From Acidobacteriota bacterium (GTDB lineage: Bacteria > Acidobacteriota > Terriglobia > Acidiferrales > UBA7541), in contig QHYS01000332.1 of assembly GCA_003223325.1 (NCBI GenBank), positions 1 through 40,800 of the forward strand: a DNA stretch of 40,800 bases, read 5' to 3'. Below the pieces are notes generated by a model that saw nothing but the letters and a program-made list of their open reading frames with translations, did no database searches and had not been told where the DNA came from. This document shows, piece by piece, positions 1,187-4,406 of this stretch. How positions within the stretch are numbered: position 1 is the stretch's first letter; each line of letters begins with the position of its first letter. The position numbers and the translations under genes were made by a program.

Positions 1187-2548
1187 ATGAAGACCCGTCT
1201 TTGCCTCTCGTTGCTATTTGTTTCTCTGTTGCTGTCTATGGCTATCGAGGCTCCCAGGAAAATGGCTGCGCAGGGCAAGGGAACAAATGAGACTGTGAAA
1301 GAAGATCGGCACGATGCTGGTTTCGACGAACAAATTCGTGACAATGCGGAAGCAATGGTTGAGCAGGGCCAGAGCATCTTTCGCTTCGATACGTTCGGCG
1401 ATGAGGCTTTTTGGGGCGACACACTGAACCTCCACCAGGCAATCGAAGGAGCAAAACTGGGCGGAGTAGGACCTGGAGTTAGTCCGGCAACCGCTCTCGC
1501 CGTCGGGCTGAAGGTGGATGTGAACGCGCTTCCCGCCAGCCTGATAGCGGCTCTTAAGGAAGGGAATGTCAATCTGAATGATCCCTCCACAACACTTGCG
1601 CTGCTCAAGCTGAACTCGGTTCTGGGTGTGACCGGTTTTTTCAATTCGCAAGGAACTCTGCAGTCGATTGGAATCCAGTGCGCGTTTTGCCATTCCACCG
1701 TGGACAACTCGTTGGCACCCGGCATCGGCCATCGCCTAGACGGGTGGGCGAACCAGGATTTAAACGTCGGGGCGATTGTTAGTCTGGCTCCAAACCTCCA
1801 ACCCGTCGCGAGCCTTCTGAGCACGGATGTGGCGACCGTGAGGAGGGTATTGGCGGCTTGGGGGCCAGGAAAATTCGATGCTGAACTCCTGATGGATGGC
1901 AAAGGTTTTCGGCCTGATGGCAAGACAGCGGCCACTCTCATTCCTCCTGCGTTCGGTCTTCCCGGAGTGAACTTGCATACCTGGACAGGATGGGGTTCGG
2001 TGACCTATTGGAATGCTTTCGTTGGGAATCTGGAGATGCATGGGAAGGGGACGTTCTTCGATCCTCGGCTTAACGATGCCACTCAATTCCCCGTCGCGGC
2101 TGCAGCGGGCTTCGGCAACGTCCGCAATGCTCCTGACCTGATCACCGCGAAGCTCGGCGCTTTGCATTTTTACCAACTGGCGATACCGGCCCCCAAGCCA
2201 CCCCAAGGAACCTTCGATGAGGACGCTGCAGCGCGTGGAAAGGAGATTTTCGAAGGCCAGGCAAAGTGTTCAACATGCCATGTGCCGCCGCTGTTCACCG
2301 AACCGGGGTGGAATCTGCACACGCCCGAAGAGATTGGAATCGACAATTTTCAGGCCAATCGCGCACCGGACAAGCGATATCGTACGGCTCCCCTGAAGGG
2401 GATCTGGACACACACGAAGCGCGGCTTTTTCCATGATGGACGTTTCGCGACGCTTGATGACCTCGTCCGGCATTACGACAACCTCTTTGGACTCGGTTTG
2501 AGTGATCAGCAGGTCCACGACCTAGTGGAATATCTCAAGTCTTTGTAA
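1187..2548 (+). CDS. Di-heme cytochrome c peroxidase-like protein (MauG/CcpA superfamily)
   Basis: A 453-residue exported protein. Residues 1-30 form a Sec signal peptide (basic start, then a hydrophobic LCLSLLFVSLLLSMAIEA stretch). Two c-type heme motifs are present: CAFCH at residues 165-169 and CSTCH at 361-365. The region after the second motif (APLKGIWTHTKRGFFHDGRF) is typical of this superfamily. Members act in the periplasm on hydrogen peroxide or as electron-transfer oxidases. The long insert before the first heme motif makes it longer than classical CcpA (about 320 residues), so the substrate is uncertain. A strong Shine-Dalgarno GGAGG lies 7 bases before the ATG. A DUF3179 selenoprotein candidate follows on the same strand about 240 bases later; the gap shows no other gene. 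Confidence 0.85.
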   Translation: MKTRLCLSLLFVSLLLSMAIEAPRKMAAQGKGTNETVKEDRHDAGFDEQIRDNAEAMVEQGQSIFRFDTFGDEAFWGDTLNLHQAIEGAKLGGVGPGVSPATALAVGLKVDVNALPASLIAALKEGNVNLNDPSTTLALLKLNSVLGVTGFFNSQGTLQSIGIQCAFCHSTVDNSLAPGIGHRLDGWANQDLNVGAIVSLAPNLQPVASLLSTDVATVRRVLAAWGPGKFDAELLMDGKGFRPDGKTAATLIPPAFGLPGVNLHTWTGWGSVTYWNAFVGNLEMHGKGTFFDPRLNDATQFPVAAAAGFGNVRNAPDLITAKLGALHFYQLAIPAPKPPQGTFDEDAAARGKEIFEGQAKCSTCHVPPLFTEPGWNLHTPEEIGIDNFQANRAPDKRYRTAPLKGIWTHTKRGFFHDGRFATLDDLVRHYDNLFGLGLSDQQVHDLVEYLKSL

Positions 2549-2788: not shown

Positions 2789-3802
2789 ATGAAGAGCTTA
2801 CACTTCCTCCCGGTTTTATTTGTCGTCCTGGGCACAGGTGCGGCGGCGCAAAAGCAGGCCCAGGAGCGCTTGCCATATACTGCGATCCACGATCCGCAGT
2901 TTATTCCAGCTTCCTCGGCAACGTTTTTGCATGATGACGACCGCATCATTGGAATCACGGTTGGAAGGATAGCGAAGGCCTACCCCGCTGCCATCCTTTC
3001 ACAGCATGGCCTCGTTGAGGATCGGTCGCCTTCCGGGCCTATCGCCATCACTTGGTGAAGCTACTGCAACACGGCCCTCGTGTTCAGGGCCGCCGCAAAG
3101 GGGCGCGGTCTTCAGTTGGATAACGCAGGCGTGGTCGGCGGCAACGAGGTATTCAAAGATCGCGAAACCGGCAGCATCTGGCAACAGTCCAGCCTGCAGG
3201 CCACCTCGGGCCCTCTAGAAGGCGAGCATCTGCAACTCTATCCTTTTCTCCTCACGGATTGGGCTGAATGGCACCGCCTGCATCCGGGTACCCTGGTGCT
3301 GAAACCACTGCCTGGTTACGCGGATCGCATCCCCGAACGGAATAAAATGATCCGCGAAGGATTATCGGGGGAGGGTTCCGCGCCCCCAGGCGTGATCCGC
3401 GTTGACGATCGACTCAAGCCTAAGACAATGGTTCTGGGTCTTGCCCTTCGCGGCTTCGACGAGGCATTTTCACTCACTGACCTTCGGCAGGCGCGTGTGA
3501 TTAATCTGGAGATGGGCGGCCAGCCGGTTCTCGTTGTGCATCAACCCGGATCGGATACCACCACCGCTTTCATCACCAGCGCCAAAGGCAAGCGCCTGAA
3601 ATTCGCCGCTGCGAATGCGGAAGCCACCGAATTGGTGGATGATCAAACCAAATCACGCTGGAATCCTTATGGGGAATGCATTTCCGGCGCACTGAAGGGA
3701 ACGCAACTCGAATCACTCGTACTGGAGCCGGAATATTGGTTTGCCTGGTCGGAATTCCATCCAGCAACGAAGATCTACACGGTCGTGCAAACGAGACCCT
3801 AA
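2789..3802 (+). CDS. DUF3179 exported protein, candidate selenoprotein (in-frame TGA = Sec90)
   Basis: One frame of 338 codons is interrupted only by TGA at 3056-3058 (codon 90). Residues 1-20 are a signal peptide ending AAAQ. The DUF3179 pattern is present on both sides of the TGA: IGITVGRIAKAYPAAIL before it, and NTALVF, DRETGSIWQ, SGPLEG, RWNPYGECISGALKG and YWFAWSEFHP after it. The family normally reads TWCPLCNT or TYCPLCGT at this point; here the frame reads TW-TGA-SYCNT. The TGA therefore replaces the first Cys of a CxxC motif, giving UxxC, a classic selenocysteine context. A hairpin follows directly (3064-3087). The Shine-Dalgarno is AGAGG before 2789. The alternative is a single Cys-to-stop nonsense mutation, but no other lesion is seen across the remaining 247 codons. 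No sel genes lie in this window. The biochemical function of DUF3179 is not established; a periplasmic thiol/selenol redox role is inference. The 3' end overlaps the convergent cupin gene by 3 bases. Confidence 0.75.
3064..3087 (+). promoter_or_regulatory. Candidate bacterial SECIS hairpin
   Basis: CTG (3064-3066) pairs with CAG (3085-3087). C3067 is bulged. AACACG (3068-3073) pairs perfectly with CGTGTT (3079-3084) around the loop GCCCT (3074-3078). This gives 9 base pairs with one bulge and a G as the first loop base. The loop starts 16 bases after the TGA, close to the spacing of known bacterial SECIS elements such as that of E. coli fdhF. The element lies within the coding sequence, as expected for bacteria. 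Folding was done by eye only. Confidence 0.6.
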
Positions 3803-4233
3803 GCGGGCCCCGGCATGGTCAACGGGACGCCTTTTCTCGCGAAGATCATGGCCAGAAGCTTTGCCGGTTCGGTGGCGCTGGCATTGCTGGAAACTTCGTG
3901 CGTGCTTCTCGGCGGTTCAAAGAACATCTCTCCCGTTCGAAAGGTCCTTTCTTCCTGCCCGGAGATCTTGGTGACCACCGCGCCTTCGAGCACATAGGCA
4001 AGGACGAAGCCGGCGTGATGATGGGGCTGTCCGACCCTTCCCGGTGGGTAGTCCACGTAACTGACCGTCACCTCCCAGTCTTCCATGGTGATATTCGGCA
4101 GGTCGTGCTTGAAGACAGCCGCGTTTGCTCTTTGGGGTTGTTGACCGGTTGCGTCATTTCGCGTTTGGGCGTTTGCGCCTAATTCGCACAGCAAAGCGAT
4201 GGCAGCTGCGAGAGTACCTCGACGTGTGATCAT
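3799..4233 (-). CDS. Exported cupin-domain protein
   Basis: A 144-residue protein. Residues 1-23 form a signal peptide (ITRRGTLAAAIALLCELGANAQ; the twin Arg could fit Tat or Sec export). The cupin metal site appears as PPGRVGQPHHHAGFVLAYVLEG (first motif, with three His) followed by FRTGEMFFEPPRSTHEV (second motif). Single-domain cupins of this kind bind a metal or act as small dioxygenases or sensors; the substrate cannot be told. An upstream in-frame start at 4269 exists, but the ATG at 4233 begins right at the signal peptide. TATAAT lies at 4240-4245, six bases before this ATG, so the mRNA may be leaderless. The stop overlaps the end of the convergent DUF3179 gene. Confidence 0.8.
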   Translation of the reverse strand: MITRRGTLAAAIALLCELGANAQTRNDATGQQPQRANAAVFKHDLPNITMEDWEVTVSYVDYPPGRVGQPHHHAGFVLAYVLEGAVVTKISGQEERTFRTGEMFFEPPRSTHEVSSNASATEPAKLLAMIFARKGVPLTMPGPA

Positions 4234-4239
4234 GGACTG

Positions 4240-4245
4240 ATTATA
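4240..4245 (-). promoter_or_regulatory. -10 box of a possibly leaderless cupin mRNA
   Basis: On the minus strand TATAAT is followed by six bases and then the ATG at 4233. With normal -10 to start spacing, transcription would begin at or next to the A of the ATG. No Shine-Dalgarno is visible, and no good -35 box was found. Confidence 0.4.
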
Positions 4246-4406
4246 CTCGCGCCAAATAGGAACAATCACCCAGCGACACGCGGAAATGCCTCTTGCGACT
4301 CAGCTAAATTTTACAACTCCTGAAAAGTCGCGTTTTCGGCAACTGGCCTTTTGTGCTTCTAGGCTCCACTCATTGGCGTCGGCCTAGTCACACCGTTACC
4401 GGAAGC

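Follow-up and report, generated by a model that had tools for sequence, protein, structure and literature searches.

A probable selenoprotein gene of the DUF3179 family in an Acidobacteriota genome and the spread of its selenocysteine-containing relatives

DUF3179 is listed as a selenoprotein family, with a UxxC/T motif, in the relevant sections of two reviews of prokaryotic selenoproteomes (PMC9312934, PMC13188914), the first of which assigns it to its reference 63 (PMC9312934), and one example accession is given in each (PMC9312934, PMC13188914). For the phylum of interest here, the corresponding section of PMC1794560 describes few known selenoproteins (Acidobacteria: three families, four proteins). 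The term ‘Acidobacteri-’ does not occur in the portion of the 2026 review text considered (PMC13188914), and our literature search found no paper on DUF3179 selenoproteins in Acidobacteriota; one may exist elsewhere. Cys-type DUF3179 proteins, such as those of Thiothrix subterranea and the Deinococcus deserti plasmid copies, share the domain but have CPLC at the position of selenocysteine (Sec), with TGC or TGT in place of TGA.

The gene described here lies in a stretch of 40,800 nucleotides, the whole of which is referred to as the window. It has the Pfam family and the UxxC motif in common with the reviewed DUF3179 selenoproteins, as they appear in the sections cited (PMC9312934, PMC13188914), and, the family being already reported as one of selenoproteins, it is therefore not a first. 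What differs is the extent of the family, since the Sec form is found here across many Acidobacteriota families, with UxxA, UxxS and UxxV variants and with the downstream hairpin in several registers. As a further Sec-DUF3179 member the gene is well supported, and the Sec form extends further and takes more forms than we found described.

The interrupted reading frame and its relatives

The frame at positions 2789–3802 of the forward strand comprises 338 codons and, as the original prediction had it, is intact apart from one TGA at codon 90 (3056–3058), the only internal stop, which is kept in all relatives of group A. The read-through product of 337 residues, with an N-terminal stretch that resembles a signal peptide by eye, matches PF11376 over residues 32–327 (E = 1.9e-60; 205.2 bits versus a gathering cut-off of 27) and covers the full length of the profile (6–292 of 292). 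No NCBIfam model and, by sequence, no solved structure matched the protein, and no phage homologue of it was found. Cys-type homologues, among them the Thiothrix and Deinococcus proteins, have Cys in the column of the TGA, so that its assignment to the first Cys of the DUF3179 motif was correct; in the window gene the motif itself reads TW-U-SYC rather than CPLC. Position 90 is Cys or Sec in all 28 rows of alignment A1, and His73 is conserved in 27 of them. Cys93 (3065–3067), the second position of the UxxC motif, is Cys in 25 of the 28 rows, with Ala, Ser, Thr or Val in some subgroups. As judged from sequence comparisons, 2789–3802 is almost certainly a functional selenoprotein gene, whose exported DUF3179 product would carry Sec at codon 90.

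Under translation table 11 the frame falls into two open reading frames, 2789–3058 and 3080–3802, precisely the split that had been anticipated for standard gene callers. The same split would be seen in a pseudogene, or with an assembly error, in which a TGC or TGT has become a nonsense TGA in an otherwise intact gene, and a true relic of a second DUF3179 copy does occur in the same genome, on contig C47, where approximately 34 codons of the N terminus are left next to an intact cupin gene. This explanation is nevertheless very improbable, given that the same TGA is present, with no other lesion, in independently assembled relatives down to approximately 57% identity, and that synonymous constraint and covariation are detected directly downstream of it (see below). 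The C47 relic (L099, approx. 2805–3480), which retains the first 34 codons with 71% identity and adjoins the intact second cupin copy, shows what a decayed DUF3179 copy looks like. A further, very divergent DUF3179-like frame with a TGA is found on contig C129 (L132, approx. 1402–2148; AAF-U-PACNTGTSLVP, with the hairpin GGGACC-AGTTT-GGTCCC), where the part upstream of the TGA (the N-terminal half) appears to be missing relative to locus L170.

In a tblastn scan of one genome per species, which yielded 16 loci with close relatives, all in Acidobacteriota metagenome-assembled genomes, TGA was found at the same codon in every one of the 16 (59–82% identity), with no other stop before the terminator, a recurrence well beyond chance expectation. 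Thus, to the question of whether close relatives carry TGA or TGC at codon 90 the answer is TGA throughout, and the predicted absence of other lesions extends to the relatives, none of which has scattered ones. A whole-genome search of 101 related genomes returned full-length matches of at least 42% identity that all contain one TGA. Across the phylum, PF11376 is present in 91 of the 297 genomes sampled, and, by a hand count, approximately 60 of approximately 135 matches have exactly one in-frame TGA and none has TAA or TAG. Among the TGA-bearing matches that were fetched (40 further stretches were added), a single one, a poorly aligned repeat in L171, has its TGA outside the Sec column. Two loci, L166 and L167, form a separate subfamily (F-U-ENC); TGA is at the same column there, but the common registers contain no clear hairpin.

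When the motif columns were masked for tree building, the window gene fell inside a clade of 39 Sec sequences without a single Cys member, and the 97 DUF3179 sequences of the tree require six Sec/Cys changes, compared with a shuffled mean of 26.4. The second Cys is replaced in several Sec subgroups, giving UxxA, UxxS, UxxT and UxxV. These comparisons indicate that in Acidobacteriota the Sec form of DUF3179 is of old origin, widely distributed and conserved across many families.

The downstream hairpin and the selenocysteine machinery

A SECIS-type hairpin, GGCCCT-CGTGTTC-AGGGCC, with a 6-bp stem, is located at 3073–3091 on the forward strand, and its assignment draws on folds, register, covariation and synonymous identity. 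It starts 14 nt after the UGA, its loop starts 20 nt after the UGA and a G occupies the second loop position. According to the section on bacterial SECIS (bSECIS) elements in PMC13188914, a G is expected within the first two loop positions, with 16–37 nt from UGA to loop and an energy below −7.5 kcal/mol; against these rules, the hairpin is within the limits for loop G, UGA–loop distance, stem and energy (PMC13188914). It differs from catalogued elements in matching no Rfam family, and the Rfam search of the window gave no SECIS or tRNA-Sec family match; most bacterial SECIS elements are described as unlike each other in sequence in the same section (PMC13188914).

A 6-bp hairpin is found in the interval searched in 69 of 73 distinct Sec sequences versus 2 of 33 Cys sequences (in other registers), and the Acidobacteriota Cys homologues tested have no hairpin in the Sec registers. 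The register varies among Sec subgroups. Outside group A the largest subgroup, a set picked for its peptide motif regardless of pairing, has 14 distinct stems with two-sided changes at several pairs; its pairing is 0.914, whereas 5000 partner shuffles average 0.766 and do not exceed 0.824. Within group A, synonymous identity is 0.885 in codons 91–101 versus 0.44 elsewhere, a value reached in none of 20,000 permutations. Taken alone, the window hairpin is unexceptional in folding energy (z, −0.80; p approx. 0.05 versus synonymous shuffles). Shuffling synonymous codons is a weak test of hairpin energy for a single sequence, in part since the codon frequencies are drawn from the hairpin region itself; the covariation and synonymous-identity tests are more informative.

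The original prediction called for a search of the genome for selA, selB, selC and selD. In an assembly of 377 contigs that is 98.4% complete, three of them are present, namely selA (544.9 bits), selB (316.7 bits plus the C-terminal domain) and selD (367.9 bits), and selC is represented by a fragment at a contig end, detected by DNA similarity only: the fragment consists of the initial 30 nt of tRNA-Sec, identical to those of the congeners and preceded by a similar flank, and stops exactly where contig C156 ends. A complete tRNA-Sec was not found in the assembly, the RF01852 matches scanned being all other tRNAs; the whole tRNA-Sec, with a TCA anticodon, is present in three congeners. A match on contig C299 was considered as the missing half of selC and discarded because it is located inside its contig. 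The 3′ 24–45 nt of tRNA-Sec recur at C299, C81, C50, C370, C206 and C135, as attachment sites of selC-integrating elements would. By hand counts, selA exceeds its threshold in 39 of the 40 genomes that have a TGA-type DUF3179 versus 32 of the 40 that have Cys types only. Genome G143 has a TGA-type DUF3179 and no selA match, although it is rated complete.

Read-through of an in-frame TGA would also be expected if this codon were globally reassigned to an amino acid in the source organism, a reading that can practically be dismissed, since TGA is the commonest stop of the long open reading frames of the window (terminating 13 of 25), in several relatives the gene that has TGA at codon 90 also ends with it, and within the frame it is confined to one column. 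With TGA an ordinary stop elsewhere, the code is therefore not reassigned. Rather, UGA90 would be decoded as Sec by SelB and tRNA-Sec, guided by the hairpin 14 nt downstream in the coding sequence.

Predicted fold and gene neighbourhood

The AlphaFold2 model of the whole DUF3179 protein has a pLDDT of 89.4, and that of repeat 1 alone of 94.6. An internal duplication is predicted, with two Rieske-like β-barrel repeats, as deduced from the order of the secondary-structure elements together with the sequence. With both the full model and repeat 1, the matches listed by VIA-align are Rieske-fold proteins, repeat 1 aligning with Rieske-type ferredoxins over approximately 92 residues at 2.4–3.3 Å with Z approximately 8, a level at which the tool warns of chance; Foldseek gave no match below E 0.001. 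Because the matches are uniformly Rieske and the whole domain is covered, a Rieske-like fold is likely, though not certain.

The fold raises the question of whether the protein is a Rieske-type iron–sulfur electron carrier with Sec as a substitute for one of the cluster ligands, the more so as the Rieske fold accounts for nearly all the best structural hits, whether the full model or repeat 1 alone is the query, and the H73-x16-U90 spacing equals the His-x16-Cys of a Rieske protein of the same genome. The CxH-x15–17-CxxH cluster ligands are, however, absent, with Ser71/His73 and Sec90/Cys93 in their stead: the Cys of the first loop is missing (Ser71) and the His of the second loop is Cys93. 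In addition, a profile comparison with Rieske gave a probability of 0.3%, and the aligned ranges place residue 90 near ferredoxin residues 23–34, which are presumably away from the ferredoxin cluster loops. An electron-carrier role of this type is thus quite improbable, and the Rieske cluster suggested by spacing and fold was rejected on the basis of ligands, aligned ranges and profile comparison. With the ligands absent and the profile comparison empty, the DUF3179 protein would be Rieske-like in its predicted fold and not a Rieske protein. What it shares with Rieske-fold proteins, including the NirD type, is the predicted fold of repeat 1, whereas the CxH…CxxH cluster motif and sequence-profile similarity are lacking.

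The conserved neighbour of the gene is a convergent one for an exported cupin, at 3799–4269 on the reverse strand (Pfam Cupin_2, 5.2e-12, for the residues encoded by 3802–4269), which is found beside the DUF3179 gene in nearly all group-A loci with 33–87% identity; close relatives keep its orientation and some distant ones have it reversed. Attention had initially been drawn to a di-heme peroxidase, and a gene for a cytochrome c/MauG-like di-heme protein does lie upstream (1187–2548, forward strand; Pfam Cytochrom_C, with weak NCBIfam matches to MauG and CytoC_perox). It is, however, not a conserved neighbour, the conserved partner being the downstream cupin: neither the di-heme cytochrome peroxidase-like gene nor the Crp-type regulator nor the amidohydrolase is conserved beside DUF3179 in the flanks of the relatives, and an association with the peroxidase was therefore discarded. 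Two open reading frames of the window that are equal in length (301 residues) are unrelated to each other. On a Thiothrix subterranea plasmid (L177), the Cys-type DUF3179 gene adjoins that of a GDCCVxC (seleno)protein, near a thioredoxin-domain gene.

Proposed mechanism and significance

In the mechanism that we propose, the DUF3179 product would be exported and fold into two Rieske-like barrel repeats, with Sec90 and Cys93 placed at a strand end in repeat 1. Sec90 would act as the attacking residue, and Cys93, where present, would resolve the selenenylsulfide. From the motif and from family precedent, which are the bases of this assignment, the protein is somewhat more probably than otherwise an extracytoplasmic selenol/thiol oxidoreductase. 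Several Sec subgroups lack Cys93, so that residue 90, and not the pair, emerges as the essential element, and the mechanism of the family as a whole must involve more than a plain dithiol-type cycle at UxxC.

The main rival, which concerns the mechanism only, is a protein that handles metals or metalloids with His73, Sec/Cys90 and Cys93 as ligands. The near-invariance of residues 73 (27 of 28) and 90 (28 of 28) would suit such ligands, as would the conserved cupin neighbour, a fold that is often metal-binding, and a chromate transporter gene near a Deinococcus Cys homologue; yet several subgroups do without the second Cys, and we consider the proposal unlikely. A broader reading, put forward tentatively, is that Sec-DUF3179 may be an ancient exported selenoprotein present throughout the phylum and may form with the exported cupin a pair, not described before, for redox reactions or the handling of metal(loid)s, in which a selenol would replace the Fe-S cluster in a Rieske-like barrel and the variants without the second Cys may be single-selenol catalysts.

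Since the standard code splits these genes at their most conserved residue, both the family and its use of selenium readily escape notice in a phylum that is dominant in soil. The approximately 70 distinct Sec sequences, the several hairpin registers and the Cys controls make Sec/Cys exchange and SECIS evolution testable within one family, and the cupin partner and the predicted fold can guide experiments on what this domain of unknown function does.
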